Shown here in pieces: positions 31,104 through 62,733 of a DNA stretch of 64,000 bases (position 1 is its first letter; each line of letters starts with the position of its first letter). The stretch is from positions 62,001 through 126,000 of the forward strand of contig JAQGBZ010000172.1 of assembly GCA_034687125.1 (NCBI GenBank). The letters are read 5' to 3'. The DNA is from Neelides folsomi (taxonomy: Eukaryota > Arthropoda > Collembola > Neelipleona > Neelidae). Both the position numbers and the translations under genes were made by a program. Below the pieces are notes generated by a model. That model saw nothing but the letters and a program-made list of their open reading frames with translations, was not told the origin of the DNA and ran no database searches.

Positions 31104-31757
31104 CATATACTAATACAATATACTATTGGTATACAGTATATGAATTTATGAATTGTATGAGTATTTTACTATCGCGCAGTTTTGACTAAAATCTTCAAGT
31201 TACATTTAATATTCGTTTCATCCCTTCCGACGTCGTTTATCGATAAGAACACAACAACTCACGTGGGAAAAGATCTCTTTGGGTAGTTAAAGGGTTGTTG
31301 AAAGGAGGAGTTGAGGAATAAAAATAATCGGGCGAGAGAAGTGGAAGTTGGTAATAAAACGCCGCAGCCGTTCCTCGGGCTCTCACAGTGCTTCATTGTG
31401 TCTCATTGACATTGAACTTCTCCCTTACTACTCCAGAGACCCATTTCACTTGAAGAAAAGATTGAGGGCATAAGAAAAAGACATAGAAAAAGACCGTCTG
31501 GGAAGATGAGCTCTCCGCCCACCTTCTTCATCTGCTAGGTCTCGTGAGAAGATTTTGAGACTCCTCGACGGATGTGAGAACAATTAAAGTCCTGACCCAC
31601 CGTTCTTCAATTCTCGACCAAAAGAGATAAAGATGACGAAATGCAATTTTTCACTCCTCCGCAAGTCGCTGTCGGAAATCACGGTCGAACCAGTTCTGTT
31701 CCTCTACATGCTATCAACTTTCTCACAATACGCTCTCTTCCAAGATTTAGTCTATTC
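31104..31757. repeat. Source copy of a 654-bp duplicated block (SLC46 upstream region and exon 1)
   Basis: This block is repeated in the same orientation at 38408-39065. Read base by base, the two copies match except for a 4-base insertion (ataa) in the second copy after the shared ttggtatac. The block includes about 530 bp upstream of the SLC46 start codon and the first 125 bases of its coding exon. It ends 12 bases before the splice donor. This copy is contiguous with the rest of the transporter, so it is taken as the original. Confidence 0.95.
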
Positions 31758-34700
31758 AAAAGTCTGCAGGTGAAAAAATTAATCATTTTTTTATATTTTA
31801 TACATGTCCAATATACGAGAAACTTAGATGTACGGATACATACCTGTATGTATATATCCGTACATCTAAGTTTCTTCAACTACTGATATTCCTTCTTTGC
31901 TACTTTATAATTTCCTCTATTGAATCTTACTTGAAATAAACTTTATTTCCCATAAAAGACTTTTTATATAATTATCTACTCTATATAATTATCTACACTC
32001 TAGTATGCAGATATAAAATATAATTATGTAAAGACAAATTGAATGACAACTTTGAATACTAATTGTCAATTGAATTGAAATTTACATTAAATTTTATTTA
32101 AAGACTGGATGTATGGATTTGTATGAACAATTTACATAAGTAGAGATTTCAATGCTTTTACTACATCATTAAATTAATACATGTTCATAAGTCCATCACA
32201 AAATAAACAGAAATATCTGTACTAACATAAATAAAAGTTAATTTGTGAATATTAAGATAAAAAATATAATTTTGACTTGGGTATTTAAATTTTTTAAAGC
32301 TTTCAATATTAAGAGGAATGTGAAGAATCATTTTTAAGATTTTAAGACAAAGTAATTTGCAGAAGATATTTAATGTTGGTACTTAAACCCATGCCATGCA
32401 TGTCCAGTAAATTTGCTCTCCTACAACTTTTCAGATGAAGCCAACAGATGCGTATAAAATAGTAGCTAATAAAATTCGTAAAACCACATCCTATGTTTCA
32501 TGCATTCCATATCTCATACATATTATTTATGTAGGAACAAAACCATCTTATTACAATTTGATTCGTACACCTGCACATGGAAAATTTAAGTCCAGGAGAT
32601 TCCAAATACCAAATACATTACGTAAAGTACAGATATGTATATATTTTTTATGTATATCCCGAAACCATAAGAAATATCTCCATACAATGTGTGTTTATTC
32701 AAATATTGTTTCCCAATTCTCTAATTACGTTTTTCATTTTATATGACATACAAGTATAGTACAGTATAGTACATATTAAGGTGAAATGGAGTGAACAGTT
32801 TTTTGAGGATTGGGTGTATAATATAAAAGCATTGGCTATGGAGTCTAGACATGGTATGATATGGGTATAGGGCGGATTTTCTCTTCTACTTCCACTTACA
32901 TATAACTAATGTTACATTACTTACTACAAGTATTAGTTATATTGTGGTTAAAACCGCATGAGTTTTTGTTGGTGTGGTCGGAAACGCTGGTGGAGGAGTC
33001 GAAGGGTTGTTGAAGTAAACATTATGTCCAATTAATTCAAGGTCGAGCTACGACGCAAGCATCTGTGATAATCTTTACCTACCTGACCATCACCATGAAC
33101 TTGACATTGTCCAAGGCTGGTCTTCATACTGGATCCTCGTTTCTACAATCTGTCTCACCGTACCCTCCATCTTCACCAGCATCTATCTTGGGAGTTGGAG
33201 GTTCGTTTTCATTAACATTTACATATATTGAGAATATTAAATTAACTATAATTAAATTAATTTAATTATAAGTGTTGAGGATTTTTAATTGCTGGTTTAT
33301 TCTAATTTTTAATTATTAGTTAATTCTAATTAATGACTTCGTGTTTCAGTGATAAATTCGGGCGAAAATGGCCAGTTGTGATTCCTCCATTGGGCGGAGT
33401 TCTCTCTTGCCTTGTCTACATTGTAATTTCCTTCGAGACTCAAGCTCCAGTTGGATGGATTTGCCTTGCTTCTTTTCTATCGGGGATTACTGGAGGATTC
33501 GCGTCTTGCATTATGTGAGTTTTAACATTTTGTTAAAATTTAAAATATTAAAGCAACTAAAAATATCTTACTTTGAACTTTAACACTTTTAACAATTGTT
33601 TTAATCTAAATCCCCAATAAAGAATTGAGTAAACATTCTCACTATTTGTCCAATTCCTCAACATTGTTTTTAATGATACAGTAGATACTGATACAGTATT
33701 TTATGTTTATATTATGATATTATTGATAAACTTTTAGTATTTATAACATGTAACAATAAGTAATACAATACAATATTAAATATGTTATGTACAAGTGTAA
33801 GGAAAAACAAGTGTAAATATTTAAAAATATTTTAAAAAATTGTTATTAAACTCTGAAGGTCTTCCATGACATACGTGGCTTCGATCAGCTCCGAAGCTAA
33901 CAGAACCACAAGGATCTCGAGATTAGAAGCCATGATATTCCTAGGAGGTATTTGCCCAACATCTATTAATAATAAGAAAAAACAAATAATATTACATCTG
34001 ACAATATTGTAACAATGATACAATATTTTTTATATGTATGGTATATTTATGTGCTATCTGTATATGTAGAGTATACTTATACAGTAATTTGTATATTCTA
34101 AGATAATCTGTTAATATTTGGTTGTAATTGTTCAGGGACAATGGGGCCGTTCATCAGTGGTTCAATGGTTGAACTCACAGGGCATGGTTATGCCTTTTTC
34201 TTCCAAATGATCTGTTACTCTCTCGCGTTCCTCTACGCAGTTTTCATGATCGATGACATTCAAGATGTTTCCGTCTCTTCCACTCCAACTCCTTCCATTG
34301 ACAGTTGCGAACAAGAAAGTCGGGACAAAGTTGCTGAGCAAATCAAAGGACTCTTAACTGACTTAACTGCTTCAATTGAACAAGATGAAAAAGAGTCCCT
34401 CAAATCCTCAACCAAATCAACCCGTCCAAGTCTCAATGGCCATGATGAGTCTTTGGACGACGAGACGAGGAATATTATATTGTCAAATAGGCGTTCGGAT
34501 GATAATAACGACAATTGCTGTACACGTCTTTTTGGTTCGCAACATTTCATCGATGCTGTGAAAACGGTTTTTAAAAGACGGGATGGAAATAAACGAGTTT
34601 ATATTATTCTGGTCATCTTGGCTCAGTTTATTATAATGATGATGACTGCAGGTAGGAATTTTAATTTCCCTTAATATGACCTTAATGCAATTACAGATAT

Positions 34701-36360
34701 TAAATACACTGCAATACTTAATATCTGGAATTAAATGTACTACTATTTTATATGCGTGGTACTCCTATATTAAAATATTATACCTAGTATAAAACTTGAG
34801 TAGTTGGTATACCTATACATACCCCTACTTGAATTTTCAAGGATGATTTTTAATTCCGTTAGATTGTGAGTATGATTCATTAAAATATTGGAAATTTTAT
34901 TAATCTTACTTATAAGTTACATGAATTATAAGGATTATTGATTTATGATGTTAATTTTTTAATTTAATTATTTGAAGGTGAACTCGACGTTGCGTATTAT
35001 TTTGCCAAAGATAAACCACTCATGTGGACCCATCAAATGTATTCCTATTATTTTGGGCTCAAATATGGAATTGGAGCTTTAGTCCTTATCATTGGAATGT
35101 CACAGTTCCAAAGGATGACTTCTTCAGATGCCACAATTTGCATTATTGGATTGATTTCCAGAATAATTGCACTTGTGGCGTATGGATTGAGCTTAAATAC
35201 TACAATGGCTTTTATTGGTAACTACTAATTATGATTCTAGCTTTTTACTATTTCATAAATGGTTTAATTCTTTTTTTGTTATATGATTTATATGTTTAAT
35301 TGAAGATTTTCTATTTAATTGACAGTTCCGGTGCTTGGGGCTTTCAGTTTCTTTTCCATTCCTGCTACCAGAGCTTTGCTCTCAAAACTTGTATCTCCTA
35401 CAGAACATGGTAAATTGATGATTTAACAATACTTAAAGAATAGGAAATTAATTAAATAAAAGCGATGTATTTAAAATAATTAATAATGGTTAATTTTTTC
35501 AGGCAAAATGTTCTCATTCGTCGCTATAATGGAAGATGTTTGTACGATGACAGCTTCAGTTGTATTCAATAGCGTCTACCCATTGACGCGATCTTTCTTC
35601 CATGGATTCGTATTTGAGTTTGCTGCAGGACTCCTTCTAATTCCGCTAGGGATCATGTGGTAACAATTTAATAGAAATTAACTAAATTCATTTAATAATC
35701 CAACTTTCAATTTTAATTTAAAATGAAAGTCAGTAGGTTAACCATTAGATAAAAAAGATTATTTTTATTGATGGCTAAATATGCATTGTATTTACATTGT
35801 GTGCATATTATTTGTGACAATGTTCATAATGATAATGTTCTGTATATATTGCTAAATATTATTATGATAAATTTTATAATAATATAATAAACCTAATAAT
35901 TACAAAAATACTGATATGATGAATAATATTATTATCAGTGCACTTGAAGTGTATTTTCTTAAATTGTATTGAAAATAATGAGTTGCAAATTTCCAAGTAC
36001 GTTTATCGTATGACAATCACATTTCAATTTCAATTGGTTGATTGATTGCTTTAAACATTCATTAAATTGATAAAAATGAAAACAATCATATTGTCAATGT
36101 TCACGAATAAATGCCCAAATAATTATTTTTTCCTGGAAAAATAATCAATTTAGCAAAAATGATTAGATATGTCAATTTAAATGTATAACGAGTTATCAGA
36201 CAACACCCATTTATGATAATTGTTATAAATAATAAGGACCAAATAATGATGATGATAAAAATGATTATTTTTAATTTTCAGGATAGTGAAATCCAATCTG
36301 AAGATTGGAAAACAATGCGAATCAAGCGAAAGTGTCCCATCGGAAGAAAGAATCCTATAG
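31633..36360 (+). CDS. SLC46-family major facilitator transporter (proton-coupled folate transporter-like)
   Basis: Nine exons: 31633-31769, 33042-33200, 33350-33514, 33859-33947, 34136-34651, 34978-35217, 35326-35409, 35503-35659, 36282-36360 (541 aa). Exon 1 holds the first membrane helix (EPVLFLYMLSTF) and a VYSKVC segment typical of SLC46. The first extracellular loop is in exon 2, and the MFS motif A is LGSWSDKFGRK (exon 2/3 junction). Exon 4 gives ASISSEANRTTRISRLEAM, matching the conserved D/SISS..NRT.RIS..E of SLC46. A long, Ser/Asp-rich cytoplasmic loop follows helix 6 (exon 5). Exons 6-8 hold helices 7-12 with SIPATRALLSKLVSPTEHGK. Known members move folates, antifolates or immune muropeptides using a proton gradient; the substrate here cannot be told. 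The last exon ends in a short Ser/Glu tail, and the in-frame stop at 36358 is only reached after splicing. Confidence 0.9.
31819..31874. repeat. Perfect 20-bp-arm inverted repeat in SLC46 intron 1
   Basis: GAAACTTAGATGTACGGATA at 31819-31838 is the exact complement of 31855-31874, with a 16-bp spacer that itself holds a small catac/gtatg palindrome. It lies 50 bp after the exon 1 splice donor. It could fold into a stable hairpin in the pre-mRNA. There is no flanking direct repeat that would make it an obvious transposon. Confidence 0.85.
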
Positions 36361-38219: not shown

Positions 38220-39351
38220 ACATTTTCTTTAATGTGACTTCTCAAGTGAGTGTTAAATTTACTTTAAATTTACATGAATATTTGCATAACATGCAATTAT
38301 ATGATTTTTCTCCTGTGTGAGTTCTCATGTGGAGTCTTAAAGTTTCTTTATTTCCGGATGAATATTTGCACATTTTACACCTGAATGGTTTTTCTTATGT
38401 ATGAGTTCATATACTAATACAATATACTATTGGTATACATAAAGTATATGAATTTATGAATTGTATGAGTATTTTACTATCGCGCAGTTTTGACTAAAAT
38501 CTTCAAGTTACATTTAATATTCGTTTCATCCCTTCCGACGTCGTTTATCGATAAGAACACAACAACTCACGTGGGAAAAGATCTCTTTGGGTAGTTAAAG
38601 GGTTGTTGAAAGGAGGAGTTGAGGAATAAAAATAATCGGGCGAGAGAAGTGGAAGTTGGTAATAAAACGCCGCAGCCGTTCCTCGGGCTCTCACAGTGCT
38701 TCATTGTGTCTCATTGACATTGAACTTCTCCCTTACTACTCCAGAGACCCATTTCACTTGAAGAAAAGATTGAGGGCATAAGAAAAAGACATAGAAAAAG
38801 ACCGTCTGGGAAGATGAGCTCTCCGCCCACCTTCTTCATCTGCTAGGTCTCGTGAGAAGATTTTGAGACTCCTCGACGGATGTGAGAACAATTAAAGTCC
38901 TGACCCACCGTTCTTCAATTCTCGACCAAAAGAGATAAAGATGACGAAATGCAATTTTTCACTCCTCCGCAAGTCGCTGTCGGAAATCACGGTCGAACCA
39001 GTTCTGTTCCTCTACATGCTATCAACTTTCTCACAATACGCTCTCTTCCAAGATTTAGTCTATTCCCAGATTTAGTCTATTAAGATATATATTTTAGTCT
39101 ATTAAATGTCCTATTTGTCTACATGAATATTTGCATAATCTGCACTTGTATGGTTTTTCTCCAGTATGAATTCTCAAGTGATTATTTAAACGATCCTTCC
39201 TTCCGCTTGAAAATTCGTATATTTGGCACTTGTATGGTTTTTCTTTTATATGAGCTCTAATATGATCATCTAAACTACCTTTTGATTTAAAGTACTTTTG
39301 ACAAAATAGACACGTTTTTATCATTTTATTATATGTAAGAGTCGTTTTCAA
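38220..39351 (-). pseudogene. C2H2 zinc-finger pseudogene split by a promoter/exon duplication
   Basis: Reading from 39351 downwards: a first finger (CLFC...H..AH), a second whose second cysteine is Tyr (CQIY), and a third (CRLCKYSCRQIGHLID) that stops one residue before its first zinc-binding His. On the far side of a 0.7-kb insert, the frame resumes at 38407 with RTHT, then a stop codon replaces the Gly of the TGEKP linker. Finger 4 (CKMC...LRLHMRTH, TGEKSYNC) follows, then finger 5 (CMLC...) which lacks both His and ends in stops near 38246. The gene is therefore dead, by the insert and by point changes. The fingers resemble the relic at 61598-61946, pointing to one local family. What was lost is presumably a small DNA-binding protein of five or more fingers. 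Confidence 0.85.
38408..39065. repeat. Inserted copy of SLC46 promoter and truncated exon 1
   Basis: This 658-bp copy matches 31104-31757 base for base except for 4 extra bases near its left end. It carries the SLC46 ATG (38941) and 41 complete codons plus the first bases of a Ser codon, but not the splice donor. The reading frame runs on into the junction and stops at 39073-39075, so the copy could encode only a 44-residue peptide. The right junction shows repeated TTTAGTCTATT motifs at 39055-39065, 39071-39081 and 39093-39103. The near-identity implies a very recent duplication. Confidence 0.95.
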
Positions 39352-42300
39352 AAATATTAAAATTTAAATTCTTCTCTCTGTAAGGTTACAACAAACTTAC
39401 TTTTATCTACTACTTTAGAGTATATGGCATTAATATATATTTATTTAAATACAATATAAATAATATACTTTAACATAAATGTACACAGTGTTAAATACTT
39501 ACAAAAATACTTTTCTTCGTAAGCTTTAAATGCCTTTTTCTATTTGTGAACGAGAAATGGAAAAAAATGCATTTTAAAGTTCCTCAATTTAAAACAAAAA
39601 TATATAAAATAATTCTTTTAAGCCCTCAAGGGTAAAAATAAATAATAATATAATTGGTAAAGTAAATAGTTACATTACAGTATGTACAACCTGTGCATTA
39701 AAGCTTTATTTGAAAGATAAAAGCGCAATTAATTCATTGTAGTCTTTTGTTTGTTTACAAAGGAGCTCTGAATAATAAAGTTTTCACAGCATTAATACTC
39801 CTCTCAAAGTTCAAACAATCAATACATGAGCAAAAATATGTGGACTGGATTGTGTATAAAAAGGCTTTTACCTCAAAGGGCGTCATTCTGTCAGTTATTA
39901 TAAAGGACCTGACAAGAAAGAAATATCAAATCTTTCTTTGATGCTTTAAGTAATTTTCTAACAAACTTTCATGTTTGCATTCATGCGTTCGGGAGAGAGA
40001 TTTTACCCATTTTCTCCTTTAAGAGATCTTTGGATTCCAACGATGGATTTTATTTACATTAAACATGAACAGAAATGGTGGGCGGTGAAAATTTTGCAAT
40101 TGGAACTTTTTCGCATTTTCTTGATGACCTTTCACAACCAATTCACTGAGAATATTTCATAAGACTTTCGAAATCACACAGCTTTTGTTATTTCTGGGTT
40201 CAAATTTTGGAACTTTGCAAGATGCATCAGTAATAAATTAACCTGAGTTAAATGGTTCTGGCAATTTTAACACTTTAGTCTTCTGTAGTTTAATAATAAT
40301 AATAATTTACTCTATTTTTTCATGAGAAATTAAGAAATCTAAAATATTTTAATGCGAGGGTTTAAATGAACTATTGGATCTTTTGATTTTTTAAGATTTT
40401 ATTCAGAGTTGAGAGGATTTATCCTTTGGAATGTGGAGCTTGTCAAATAATTGGAATAGGCATTTTGTGATTTTGTCAAAGTAAATAATAATCATACCTA
40501 AGTAATAAGTATAGGTAATGTAAATAGTATTATAATGTTTATATACATATATGAATACATTTTCAAGAATGAGTTATGAAATATTTATACATACATGTAT
40601 ATAGGTAATATTGTGATGTGATTCATATGCTTAATAATACCCATATCGGTATTTATTGGATATTTTTTGACGATGGATTCTTGATGTGAATTGACTTTGC
40701 GTCAATCTCGTCAAATATAATTTCCAATAATAACCCAAACTTTTTTATTCGCTTGGACTGATTTTTTAAAGAAAAATCTCATCAATTCCAAATAATTCAA
40801 TTTCCTGTACTCACCCGCTCACTCAATTTTTTTTATAAATCATTCAATTTATCCAAAAGTTCAGACGCACACTACATACAAGTATGGTATATCTGTATTA
40901 TTTATTATTTTTATGTTCACACTCTTCAACTCTTCACAATCGTACTTACATATTTGTATATATACTATGTATATCAAATTATGTGTTTAAGAGATGTTAA
41001 ATTGTGCTATGTAAAATGTAAGTAAAGTTAATGGAAAATAAAAAATTGAAAATAAATTGAAAAATTCATCCTGAAAAATATTTACGGATAAAATCTCATT
41101 AAAATAAAATTAGATTAAATTGCACTCAATCGATTCAAGTCCTGAGGACAAATATTTTTAAGTACTCCTATGTATGTATGTATATACAGGTTATAATAAT
41201 TGATAATAATTGATAATATTAATAATTGTTAAAGATAAACTTGAAACAAAACTTAAAACGTGCACAAAATAATTTACTTGCATGAAATTAATTCTTAATT
41301 CGCCCTAGAAAAATTCTCATGAAATAAATTGGATAATTTCACATCCATTAGGGAATCTTAAGAAAAAGCTTTTTCACTAAAAATAAATGAGATTTAAACA
41401 TTTAATGCAATTAAGAGAAAGTTCATTTCATGCGAGGAAAAAGTTTTAAAGGAAAAGTATAAGTTGACGCTCCAAATTTTTATTAGATTTCTAAACTGGA
41501 GAGGCCAATGGACACCGTTGGTACATTACATGAGTATTTAAAGAATACATACCTTGTATAGTATCTGTATGTACATACATTCAAAGGTTCACGGCATATC
41601 TAATTGGTTAGAAACAACTACTAAATAATATAACATAGTTTCTATGTATAAGACAAACATGGGCATTTTCAACTATCTACTATACTTACCTGAACACATA
41701 TAAAATAATAAATATGTATTTGATTCTATAGTTGAAATCAAGAGCTATAATTCTAGGATGAGAGAAAAGTTAACCAAAGCATGTATATCCACTAATAGTA
41801 GTATAGATAACTGTAACAATCTTATATCAAATATATAGTATTTGTACAACACCATATAACATAGATTAAAGTGGAACCAACGACACCGAGAATGCATTAG
41901 GAAAGTCCTCAAATATACAATAAAGTTCAAATGGACTTGCTAAACCTTGGGTTTCAAAGTTGGTCTCCGCCTATGGAGAAAATTGTTCAAGGTTTAAGTA
42001 TTTTTTTAAACCAATCTTCTTTTTGGAAAGATTGGGAAACCAAATCCATCCAAACCAATGATTTCACTTTCCAAAAGTTTAAACCTTTTCTTTGGTTCTT
42101 TACTTTTCCCACATTTTAGTGTTTATATATTGAATTGGTTAGTTTCGCTTCACTTGTCATTTAAGAGGAAGGATGTAAACTTTATAACTTATATTATAAG
42201 AGGAATTTATTGTAACAAAATTACTTTCATCTCATCCTTTCAACATGAATCTTTTTTTATTGTTTTATGAGAGAAATCGAAAAAAATGAATGCATAAATG

Positions 42301-42713: not shown

Positions 42714-45700
42714 ATGATTTCCAACAGGATAATAAATCTTTGTCTCTTGGCATTCATTCTTATTCAAATTAACGTTAACTGGGCACAAAATAATGATTTG
42801 GGGGAAGAAAAACTTCAAGCTCAACCTGCCAATGAAAAAGTCATCATGTGCTATTGGGCTACTTGGGCTTTTTACAAAAATGGTAAATACTATTTTAAAA
42901 TGTTAAATTGTAATATGAAATATATAATTGAAGGTTATATTAAATAAATAATTAATATCTATTCAATCTTTATTTGTGTTAAAAACAAAATTTCAGATTA
43001 TGCCAATTTTGACATAAGGAATTTTGATCCATTTCTTTGCACACATATCATTTATTCATTCGCTGAATTATCTCCAAGAACCTGGAGATTTGCTTGCTTT
43101 GATATAAATTTAGATTTGTTGGCCGAAGATATTAACGTCAGTTGTAACGAAAACAAATCAACAGATGGACGACACGGTGTATTTCTTAATTTATCCTAAA
43201 CAATATAATACATTATAATACAAATATGATATTAACTAAACACATCAAAATACAGGAATGCTTTTTAATACGATGAAATGGCGAAAAGATAATAACCCAA
43301 ATTTGAAACTATTGATGGCCTTTGGTGGATGGGATCAAGGATCGGAAAGATATTCTTTGATGGCAAGAGATCCCAATAAAAGAAGGATTTTCATTTCGAG
43401 CTTGATTCAATTTCTTAAAGAATATGAAGGATTTGACGGAATTGACATTGATTGGGAATATCCCACTCAGAGGTATTTGAATTTAATTATAATGTAAAAG
43501 TCCAATACCATACTCTCGTATTTAATGTTAGATTGAGTTCATAATAAATCTGATATATTATTTATATAGGTATATTTGATTTAATAATTGGAAAGAATTC
43601 AAATTTTTGCTCTATTTTAAAATTAGAGAAGGCGCAATACCCGAAGATAGGGAGAATTTTTCATTATTTGTGAAGGTATATTTTTTCCTTTCTTTATCCT
43701 ATGACTTATTGCGTATTTAAATCTCAGTAATACCTGTAATTAAAATATTACATTAAAAATTCACTTATATTTACTCTTCAAATTTGGTTATTACTTATAA
43801 GTGCATTATTCGATAATTATATCAAATTCTGAGTGCGCCAAGTGGGGAGCGGGTACCGGGGAGAGGGGAGCAACTTACTGGGTAAGGAGACTGGAAAGCA
43901 AAAATAAATTGTTTTATTGGGGCAGATTACAAAAATAAAGATCCATTACGGATTGCGGATTAGCGGATTACCATAAGCCCATTACCATTACTATTCCTAG
44001 GCTTTAAATTAAAGCGTTGGGCATTAACTTTGATATTTAGAATATTATTTTTGTCAATTAAATCTGAAATTTCAATGTCAACTCTGAAGTATATGGACAG
44101 AAGACAACTGAAAACTTGCACCATCAAACAGACTGTGCAGGCCTTTGACCAAACTCTTGGTCCAAGTACGGACAAGTTATTCTTCCTCTTTTATCCTTAT
44201 AACTTTTAAACATTTTCTTCCCTAAAACAATATTTCTTTTCCCTTTAAGAAATTAAAAAATAATATTTCATACAGCTCTAATAGATCTTGATATAGGATT
44301 TTTAACTAACGATAATCTACCGAAGTTAAAAAATGTTCAAGAAGTTTGGACTTGATGAAAATGATGTGGAAAAAATTAGAATTTTACTTTAAAATAAATT
44401 GAGCTCAATTTTAAACATTCTATCCGGCGGATTCTATTCTCAACCTATACTCGCCACCCTTCTCCCCTCTGGCCCCCTATGTTGCTACCCACTTGCTACC
44501 CACTCTGCTACCCGCTCCCCACCCGGGGAGCAAACTGGGCCGGGTGGGGAATTACCGAACTCAGATCAAATTGTTAATGCTTAGGAGCTTCGAGAAGCGA
44601 TGACAAAAGCTGAAACAACGAAGAAATATATTTTGTCTTCAGCTATTGGAACTGGAAAATACATGGTGGAAACAGCTTATGATATACCAGAAATTTCAAA
44701 GTAAGGAAATTTGAAAGCTTAACGAAAAACATTAAAAAACATGAGTTCGGTTTGCTGATTACATAAACTTATTTTATTTACCTTACGTATTAAATACTTT
44801 ATTTTCCCAAACTCATTACAGACATTTGGATTACCTCAATCTGATGCTTTACGATCTTAAAGTAATTTGTAAAAATAAACATTGCTATAGAATTAATACA
44901 CACTTTTAACGTGTATTTATTTAACTTAATTTTTCGTTTACATATTTAAACAGAAGTTAATTGAGTTTGTAATTAATACAGATGTATATAGCTGGAGTAT
45001 CCACACAGATTGGGCACCATTCTCCTCTTTATCCAAAGAAATGGGAATCTGAGGATGATAAAGCTTTGACTATCGTATGATGCAATAAATGCGCTTTTAG
45101 GATTATTTTATTAATAATGCTATTTTTAATTTAATATAAACTTTTTATATATAAAAAATTATACTAATATTTGAATTTAATCAAAATTGCAGAAAGAGAC
45201 AATTGAACATTTTCTCAGTTTGGGAGCTCCAAAGGAAAAGTTAGTCATGGGTAATGAAATTTTAATAAAAATGAGATAAAATATTCTTTATATCCTTTTA
45301 TCTTATCCTTCATATTATAACAATGATTTTAATTTACAAATTTTTTTTAATTTTTAGGGGTTCCAGCTTATGGGAAAACATATCAAATGTTTAACCGTTC
45401 TCAACATAATTTTTATGATGAAGCCAGAGGACCCGGACAGCCATTCAAATATTCAGCTGTATGCATAATAATTAATTAATTAAAAGTTTTGATTTTTCTT
45501 GATTAATTTTACGTTTCTTAAATAATTTAGCAACCAGGAACCATTACTTATTATGAGGTAATTATACCACTTTACCTTAACTTTCATAAATTCACAATAA
45601 ATATATCAATGATATAATATTGCATACCTATACTCTATTTATAAATAACGTATTGTTTTTAAAGATATGCGGAGAACTGGAACAAACTTCAAGCTCAACA

Positions 45701-59627: not shown

Positions 59628-61597
59628 CACATGCTAAAAAGAGACAGCGAGTCTCGGTCTTCTTCAACATTTTACTCATGCAATTGCAATCCCGACTGTG
59701 AAGGATCTCAGAACAATTCTCCCTTTTTAACCTCGAAACAAAATGTTTAATTCGGCTTTAATCCTCTATTTTTCTACATTTCAAATTCAGCACGTTTCTC
59801 TTTGAGCCTTTCCTTTTAAGTATGTCAATAAAGTACTCTACATTGTGCTATTACATTTACTACTGATATATCTTTTATAATACTCCACAGTAAGTACAAA
59901 TAGATTCTTAGAATATGGCATTGTACACATATTGTAGTATATGTTGAGTAGATACCTATAGTATATATACGAGTTAGATACGTAGAAAATAATGAATCGA
60001 AATAGAAAGTCACCACATAGAAAATACCAAAATGTGAGTTTTCACCAAGCATTAGCTTTATTAAAATTTTGTCATGATATCGCGTCCTTTCAAAATGGGA
60101 AAATGTACGAATATTTGAATTTATATTAAGCATGCATAAACTATCAGTTCAATTGGTATAAATCATATTATATTGTGAAGTTCTTTCAAGAAACAAAAGC
60201 TTAACTAACCATTAGTTTAATGGGAAGCTTTGAAGCTTACCATGTTATGAAATCCATAAATATTTTATTCTAGATGTATCGATGAATACTATTAAATGTA
60301 TATGGTATTCATTGGGATTATTCTTGTGATGTTTTTGTTATGTTTTGAATCTTTTAGAAATATTCAAATTGTTATTTAAAATATTGCCAATTATCATAAA
60401 AGGTCTAAATCAAATACAAAGAAAAACACAATTAAAATATATTATATAAATACAAATGGCATAGTATACAAATAATATAGAGTATATTAGAAGTTACATA
60501 ATTAAATTAAAATGCTTGTTATAATAAGTGTTTTCTGTGGATTAATTCCAATTAATTATTACAGATCTACTATTCATACTATAACGTTTGTATTAATTAT
60601 TCACAATGTTATACCTCAGAGAATGAAAAATAAATTACATTTGATATGGAATTGGTTCACAGCTTAAGCAGTTTTACATCCAAGAGACCATTTTTTATAA
60701 GGACAGGATACGTCCATTTGCGAATTGGCTAATGTCGCTGTCTGAGTCCATCATTCCGCCCATTGCCGATCTTTCTCTTTAAGGTACTTTGCTGTGAAGT
60801 CTCGACTTCATCGATCTCAAGGGAATCGTTCAATTTTCCCTAAATTGACACAAATTTCCCCGATGTCAGTTATTTTTAAATAAAAAACTATGACTCGATT
60901 CGGCGATTTTAATTATTTAGTGATTTTATTTATAGGATTCTACAAATGGCTTGTAATAAAGTCTTTAAAGTTAACTAACTTTGAACTTTGGACATTGAAT
61001 AAAGTACAAAAAGATTTTACTTTCAACTACAGATTTTATCTGATATTGAGATAATATTGGCACAGACTTAAAACCCAATTACCTTTTATTTGCTCACATA
61101 AGATGAAATAAATCCCTGTGTTTAATAAAAGTTACTTATCGATTAAAACTTTCAAATTTCGTATTTTTAGATATTAATTTTAGATATTTAAAATAAGAGA
61201 TCCTACATACTCTAAGTTCAATAAACTAATATGAACTAATATAAATATAACTATATATCTACATTGTATTTATATTATTTTTTTGACAAATAATATTTAC
61301 CTTAGCTAGTTGTTTAAATCTGATAAATATTTTAGAAAATTAAATAATATTATATATAAGTCCCAATTAATAGCTTGTTTTCCATTATACATATTTTGTT
61401 TCTTAATGTTTCTTAATATATTTTATATCTGTAATATTGTATATGTTAGATATAATATTACCTACTCGATATTGAAATTCAAATAAGGTACGTTGAGCGG
61501 AACAAAATTTTTCATATAATATAATTAGGTTTAAGGAATTTAAAATTAAAGATAATTTTTTGTGGATTGATAATATTTGTTTTTGTATTTAATAAAA
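59628..61597. other. Spacer between the receptor and the zinc-finger relic
   Basis: Two kilobases that include the receptor's 3' UTR at the left. No coding exon is supported. A less AT-rich patch at about 60660-60860 could be read as a short minus-strand exon (a 22-residue peptide beginning MGGMMDSDSD at 60752 downward), but no splice partner was found. The rest is AT-rich. Confidence 0.45.
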
Positions 61598-61946
61598 ATG
61601 GGGAATAAATGTTTATTTTGTAATAAGAGCTTTAAATCAACCTATAGTTTTGAAACCCATATAATTGCTCACATAGGAGAAAAAATATATTATAAATGAA
61701 AAATATGTAAATTTCATTCGGAAAGAAAGATCAATAATTTAACAATCACATTAGAACTCACACAGCGGAAAAACTGATATATTGTGTAAAATCTGTAAAT
61801 ATTCATGCGGACATAAGGGAAATTTATACCATCAAATGAGAATTCACACAGGAGAAAAACCTTATAAGTGCAAAATTTGTAATTGTTCATTTGGACGGAA
61901 TGCGCATCTAGACCAACACATTAGAACTCACACCCGAGAAAAATAA
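61598..61946 (+). pseudogene. C2H2 zinc-finger pseudogene
   Basis: The relic begins with an ATG followed by one intact finger (CLFCNKSFKSTYSFETHIIA with H). A stop codon then falls in finger 2 just after YYK, followed by frameshifts through the third linker. Two fingers resume in another frame: CKICKYSCGHKGNLYHQMRI with H, then CKICNCSFGRNAHLDQHIRT with HTREK and a stop at 61944-61946. It shares the opening CLFC finger, the AHI.EK linker and the CKYSC pattern with the relic at 38220-39351, so both probably come from one expanded zinc-finger family. No intact parent copy lies in this window. Confidence 0.8.
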
Positions 61947-62733
61947 TATTTTCAAATGTGATTCATTTAAGATGAAGTTTATAGCCTTAAAATTATAATT
62001 ACAGATACCTATGTTAACCGAAAATGTGTTGAATAGCATTAATCCTTAATATACCGATATATTACCTTTCATATTAATACATACAGACCTAATAGTTCCA
62101 AAAGCAGAAAATTAAACTTTAATATGTAGTCTGATAGTCTGTTTACACACCAGATTGTTTTAAGTTTTATACATATAAAATTTTGTTTTTGGTTAATGTT
62201 GGTTTTGCTCAAAGATTTGAACGAAATAAAGAAATTCTATTTAATATCAATAATATATGTTCTTATTTTTTCTTATCAGCAATTTGGTTATTTGGGGTTA
62301 ATTAATTAACGAAACATTTTTATTAAAAACGGCTATCATTTTGTTCTTTTGGTTGGCCCAGATTTTAAGTCAAGGTTTCATGTGGGTAAATTGTATTTTT
62401 GAACCCTCCCGATGACAAAGGTTTGAATTTTATGAATATAGATTTTATTATTATTTTATGTGATGTTTAAATATAAAGGCCGTGTTACATTGCATTCTTT
62501 ACATGTTGTAAAGTAAGCAAAAGATTTTTCCTAATTTATAAAATTAATATCCTATTTATTTAATTGCAATAATGAAAAGATTTTTTGGATTTTTTAACCA
62601 AAAATATTTATTTTTGGATTTAACCATTTTTAAATCTACCAATTTATCTTTCGAATCTCAATTAAATGAATTAAATAAGATAAAGCTTTCACGGTTAAAA
62701 CTCAATTAATTGCATCCCATTGTTTACATTTGC
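61947..62733. other. Spacer, no gene seen
   Basis: About 790 bp of AT-rich DNA between the zinc-finger relic and the stop codon of the minus-strand gene. It presumably carries that gene's 3' UTR. No repeat, RNA gene or open frame of note was seen. Confidence 0.45.

Follow-up and report, generated by a model that had tools for sequence, protein, structure and literature searches.

A break in a decayed zinc-finger stretch of the springtail Neelides folsomi was probably patched with sequence copied from the front of the gene SLC46, 7.3 kb away, the end of the new strand being joined via short homology. The window, that is, the whole 64,000-base stretch that we analysed (bases 62001-126000 of contig C172, without any N), carries the copied block at 38408-39065 on the plus strand. 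Its 658 bases reproduce the source block at 31104-31757, also on the plus strand; as delimited by BLASTN, the source consists of the 529 bases upstream of the SLC46 ATG and of coding exon 1 as far as its base 125. In the BLASTN alignment 654 of 658 columns are identical, with no mismatches and a single 4-base gap that sits 31 bases inside the left end and corresponds to four extra bases in the copy near 38439-38442, while identity runs to both ends. The original prediction had described a repeat broken only by a 4-base indel, which proved exact to the base, and the orientation and spacing that it gave for the second copy hold as well, the two blocks lying in the same orientation, 7.3 kb apart, on the same contig. 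By eye, a small AT-rich inverted repeat is visible whose loop contains the four extra bases of the copy.

No third copy of the block was found in a DNA search of the whole assembly (75.1 Mb in 840 contigs), made with a tool that skips simple repeats and very common words. The block pair is also the sole repeat family reported in the 64-kb window (exact seed 20, length at least 80) and, within a set of 306,465 bases from this genome, the sole pair that reaches both 300 bases and 90% identity; the set comprises C172 except 60001-62000, C1:1-130000 and C2:20001-70000, makes up 0.4% of the genome and yields no genome-wide rate. Shorter pairs, of at least 100 bases at 90% identity or more, numbered only two in that set, one of 266 bases and inverted and the other a 128-base palindrome (90.6%); the inverted pair lies at C1:31366-32001, with 98.5% identity and arms 104 bases apart. 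The idea that the block belongs to an older repeat family was rejected, being at odds with its presence at two places only in the assembly. Elsewhere in the window, 44037-44565 is a dispersed repeat, probably a transposable element, with eight places in the assembly (itself included) that match at least 470 bases of it with identities of 71-100%, besides a few shorter fragments.

The source gene was modelled with nine coding exons, from 31633 to 36360 on the plus strand, encoding 541 residues; the model is the longest among six open splice combinations, with exon ranges set by eye. Coding exon 1, placed with the gene model and the relatives, spans 31633-31769 with its donor GT next, at 31770, and is followed by exons 2 to 9 at 33042-33200, 33350-33514, 33859-33947, 34136-34651, 34978-35217, 35326-35409, 35503-35659 and 36282-36360. 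The predicted protein matches the Pfam family MFS_1 (E 9.5e-29) and, among solved structures, has the proton-coupled folate transporter PCFT (7bc6, E 6.6e-37) as its sole match at E of 0.001 or below. The best of 98 protein matches come from the springtails Allacma fusca, Orchesella cincta, Orchesella dallaii and Folsomia candida, the best local alignment with Allacma covering 42% of the query at 72% identity. These matches identify the gene as a putative SLC46 member, proton-coupled folate transporter-like. Its 5' region contains two short upstream frames, at 31506 and 31572, one of 10 codons and the other an ATG followed by an immediate stop. Intron 1 contains a 58-base inverted repeat that is 90% self-complementary, at 31818-31875 (C172:93818-93875), 61 bases beyond the point where the source block ends on the right; a hairpin here might bear on the point where copying stopped.

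The direction of copying can be read from the right-hand end of the block. Exon 1 of the source continues into DLVYSKVC, a stretch that is the same in five of the six relatives compared (Folsomia has DLVYMRSC), whereas the second copy breaks off exactly where the source reads on in this way, and interrupts a zinc finger. Since the source exon continues as it does in the relatives, 31104-31757 is the original and 38408-39065 the copy, in agreement with the direction first proposed, from SLC46 into the relic. The number of codons carried along was also given correctly: from the ATG at 38941 to 39065 there are 125 bases, or 41 whole codons plus two bases.

Both flanks of the copy read as C2H2 fingers on the minus strand. 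To the right of the insert, the relic at 39094-39363 holds three fingers, the second without a cysteine and the third breaking off after ...CRLCKYSCRQIGHLID. To the left, at 38242-38407, it reads THT*EKPFRCKMCKYSS..., with a stop in the linker (THT*EKPF) and a frame change in the last finger. The opposite-strand zinc-finger relic said to host the copy is thus real and decayed. While this surrounding sequence is damaged, the insert shows no defect other than the 4-base difference, as expected if it arrived recently in a relic that is older. The family to which the relic belongs has 180 matches listed in the assembly. One type of zinc-finger gene has undergone expansion in this genome, contigs C108 and C172 carrying many of the matches, and an 84-base tandem array at window 61668-61943 also reads as C2H2 fingers.

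An uninterrupted paralogue was considered as a stand-in for the empty site and rejected, the nearest zinc-finger match elsewhere being 62% alike in protein, too far for this use; the target was therefore reconstructed from finger spacing. A regular expression selected 41 distinct fingers, with those of the window counted in; the spacing C-x12-H is found in 37 of them and H-x3-H in 40. The right flank runs KYSCRQIGHLID, twelve residues that lead up to the expected histidine position, and the left flank keeps THT together with the last base of the preceding residue. Between the flanks, 8 bases are missing or hidden in bases shared with the insert, or 15 if GTCTATT came from the insert alone. On this spacing, and for a pre-insertion sequence reconstructed in one assembly, the loss of target would come to about 8 bases or fewer, 15 at the outside, which implies that the break was sealed with very little loss.

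At the left join, the T at 38407 is the last base at which target and source differ, and agreement begins with the C at 38408. Comparison of the flanks together with finger spacing leaves CATAT at 38408-38412 (plus strand) as possibly common to the insert and the lost target, so microhomology at this junction may amount to anything from 0 to about 5 bases. The right join is more elaborate, and carries a feature that was absent from the original prediction. Here the insert end ...CCAAGATTTAGTCTATTC is followed by CCAGATTTAGTCTATT AAGATATATATTTTAGTCTATT and then by AAATGTCC..., which is finger sequence again. The 38 bases of filler, at 39066-39103 on the plus strand, contain AGATTTAGTCTATT once and TTTAGTCTATT twice more, as copies of the insert end, meaning that the last 11 to 14 bases of the insert recur two further times before the target resumes. 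A run of 14 bases in the filler matches the insert end exactly, and 9-mers of that end cover 25 of the filler's 38 bases. Such coverage was reached in none of 5000 shuffles, whose longest match was 11 bases. As a second control, 5000 random 38-mers were drawn from the window, 144 of them being skipped as near the block; only 12 of the remaining 4856 have any 9-mer in common with the insert end, with a longest match of 10. Moreover, the only occurrences of AGTCTATT in the window are the one at the source and three at the right junction, and Tandem Repeats Finder detects a repeat unit of 17 bases at 39042-39081. This scar points to break repair with repeated re-priming.

The same junctions bear on whether the second copy could have arisen in library preparation or assembly, for example as a whole-genome-amplification chimera of a tiny specimen. 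Single-specimen springtail genomes have been made after whole-genome amplification, according to the available text of PMC8138834, which makes no mention of chimeras, and copies that are identical save for one 4-base gap are what such an artefact could leave. A simple chimera has one junction, however, while here there are two, and both lead back into the same finger, of which little or nothing is missing; the junctions have between 0 and about 7 bases in common, too few for an overlap misjoin, and the 4-base gap marks the copies as separate sequences in the assembly. We consider an artefact improbable, although it is the least improbable of the rival origins that we weighed.

The joins also lack the marks of mobile elements. 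No target-site duplication is present, the longest strings common to the two flanks being 4 and 5 bases and lying away from the junctions; no terminal inverted repeat was detected (7 of 30 positions match); and no poly(A) tract was seen in the junction sequence. A LINE-mediated retrocopy was rejected in the absence of both a poly(A) tract and a target-site duplication, and a cut-and-paste or rolling-circle transposon in the absence of terminal repeats and of multiple copies with common ends, Helitron-type ends having been judged by eye. Capture by a Pack-TIR, Helitron or similar transposon deserves mention in that elements of this kind copy gene fronts, as described in the available portion of PMC8277862, but besides lacking the repeats and the duplication, the block occurs at only two places in the assembly, and zinc-finger sequence is recognisable on either side until a few bases from its ends, which makes capture extremely unlikely. 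The claim that the block is not a transposon is accordingly upheld.

An insert copied from RNA, as a reverse-transcribed patch, has somewhat more in its favour: the available account of human templated insertions reports a threefold fall with reverse-transcriptase inhibitors (PMC5110952), and the block crosses no intron. A start 529 bases before the ATG, in AT-rich sequence, would nevertheless require a very long 5' leader, and the joins show neither poly(A) nor target-site duplication. An RNA template is therefore less likely than a DNA template, and we regard it as improbable, slightly more so than an artefact.

With no substitution in 654 sites, the simpler reading of the alignment is that the copy is young, as had been proposed. 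By hand estimate, the upper 95% bound for 0 changes in 654 sites is about 3 changes, or 0.46% between the copies, and with a mutation rate that we take to be 3e-9 per site and generation the age would be below about 0.8 million generations. An older duplication kept alike by interlocus gene conversion could also account for such likeness, given that same-orientation copies 7.3 kb apart could convert and that identity reaches both ends. Against this, there is no mosaic of diverged and identical tracts, and identity resumes on the outer side of the sole difference, 31 bases from one end, so that conversion is not needed; we judge this origin quite unlikely, a little below the RNA template. For springtail palindromes, where gene conversion has been discussed, a wide range of Ks values and no support for concerted evolution are described in the part of the study available (PMC5490193).

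Returning to the repair of a break, we propose that a double-strand break or collapsed fork arose in the already decaying zinc-finger stretch, and that repair then copied 654 bases from the SLC46 locus, 7.3 kb off and in the same orientation. Copying would have begun some 529 bases before the SLC46 start codon and extended into exon 1, after which the new strand would have left its template and its end (…TTTAGTCTATT) would have been joined across the break through short homology. Two extra rounds of annealing and copying of the strand's own end could then have produced the 38-base filler. The enzyme would be polymerase theta, in end joining of aborted synthesis-dependent repair, or the event may have been microhomology-mediated template switching at a fork; these leave the same marks, and one scar cannot tell them apart. 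Contig C240 carries POLQ, in which helicase, HTH_61, POLQ_helical and polymerase portions are all represented, and the best protein match of this gene is from Allacma fusca (53%). The available text of PMC8654963 explains patchwork insertions of C. elegans, in which several identical stretches occur, by primer and template switching repeatedly during theta joining, and attributes tandem duplications to homologous repair that was aborted and then completed by theta joining.

The copy is a clean case of a known kind of event, a partial gene duplication combined with a class 2 templated insertion whose scar is unusually legible, and it needs no new category. The class 2 templated sequence insertions (TSIPs) of Onozawa and Aplan, as set out in the available portion of PMC5110952, likewise consist of unique sequence copied from an intact donor, with no target-site duplication or poly(A) and with a small loss together with microhomology or filler. 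In our case the block was copied from elsewhere with the donor intact, there is no target-site duplication of at least 5 bases at both junctions and no poly(A), and the added bases are those of the 38-base filler, whereas the microhomology and microdeletion come from finger spacing. The differences from that class are that the donor lies only 7.3 kb off on the same contig, a borderline case for a class with distant donors, that the filler consists of iterations of the end of the insert, and that TSIPs were described in the human genome. The theta-joining patchwork insertions of C. elegans helq-1 mutants share the repeated identical junction stretches, and the duplications in those mutants are read as end joining of aborted homologous repair, as proposed here (PMC8654963, in the part available); what we describe is a displaced copy instead of a tandem duplication or deletion, and polymerase theta is a candidate enzyme for it. 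Partial gene duplications with recruitment, in the available text of Katju (PMC3449122), resemble the present case in that the 5' flank and first exon are copied and the end of the frame comes from the new place, but here 41 codons are kept in a frame of 44, with no sign of a working gene, and although that frame ends in the filler, the recruitment is minimal in the strict sense, the filler being derived from the insert end. Among the literature matches listed, nothing close was found on promoter duplication, and the search returned no paper on SLC46 with Collembola and none on HELQ with springtail.

In a more far-reaching reading, a lineage without HELQ would keep making patchwork copies and regularly seed gene fronts into new places, the present copy being a newborn unit that drives antisense RNA over the zinc-finger gene and encodes a 44-residue, one-helix peptide. 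Domains of the PF20470 and PF21099 type (HTH_61 and POLQ_helical) are, we believe, common to HELQ and POLQ. The assembly yielded a single match to PF20470 and four to PF21099, every one of them next to the polymerase domain on C240; prokaryotes served as control genomes in the profile search, which left PF21099 without a positive control. A POLQ-helicase query found, besides POLQ on C240, only a two-cassette helicase on C252; on C75, two polymerase-A matches were too weak to pass the cut-off. No separate HELQ was seen in the assembly with these two profiles or the POLQ-helicase query. No second templated copy of this kind was present in the 306 kb compared, which counts against a habit of the lineage, and we hold the whole reading to be very unlikely.

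What the copy could do at present appears limited. Its open frame, at 38941-39075 on the plus strand, has 44 codons (MTKCNFSLLRKSLSEITVEPVLFLYMLSTFSQYALFQDLVYSQI, the last residues coming from the filler) and then a stop, and shows no Pfam match above the cut-off. The block ends 12 bases before the splice donor of exon 1, no GTRAGT donor follows it in 38701-41000, and the first AATAAA past the copy is at 39637. A functional gene was rejected on the length of the frame, the missing donor and the position of this AATAAA. No Rfam match was found in the window at gathering scores. The copied upstream sequence does bring putative promoter elements, TATCGATA and CACGTG at 38542-38571 on the plus strand (source positions 31238 and 31260, offset 7308), and the 529 bases also hold AATAAAA about 30 bases before TCACAGT; TATCGATA, CACGTG, AATAAAA and TCACAGT would be a possible DRE, E-box, TATA-like element and initiator, respectively. 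The copied block is an unproven candidate promoter for the antisense or chimeric transcript suggested in the original prediction. Most likely, to judge from its sequence, the copy is without function at present and would at best give rise to a short unspliced RNA across the relic.

In this springtail, then, a gene front with its putative promoter appears to have been caught soon after copying, when the joins were not yet blurred by mutation, and the repeated filler would show how the repair was completed. Transcription of the copy would make it a fresh example of a promoter arriving over another gene; if it is silent, it would be a well-preserved repair scar, of possible use as a control case when templated insertions are called in the genomes of small invertebrates.
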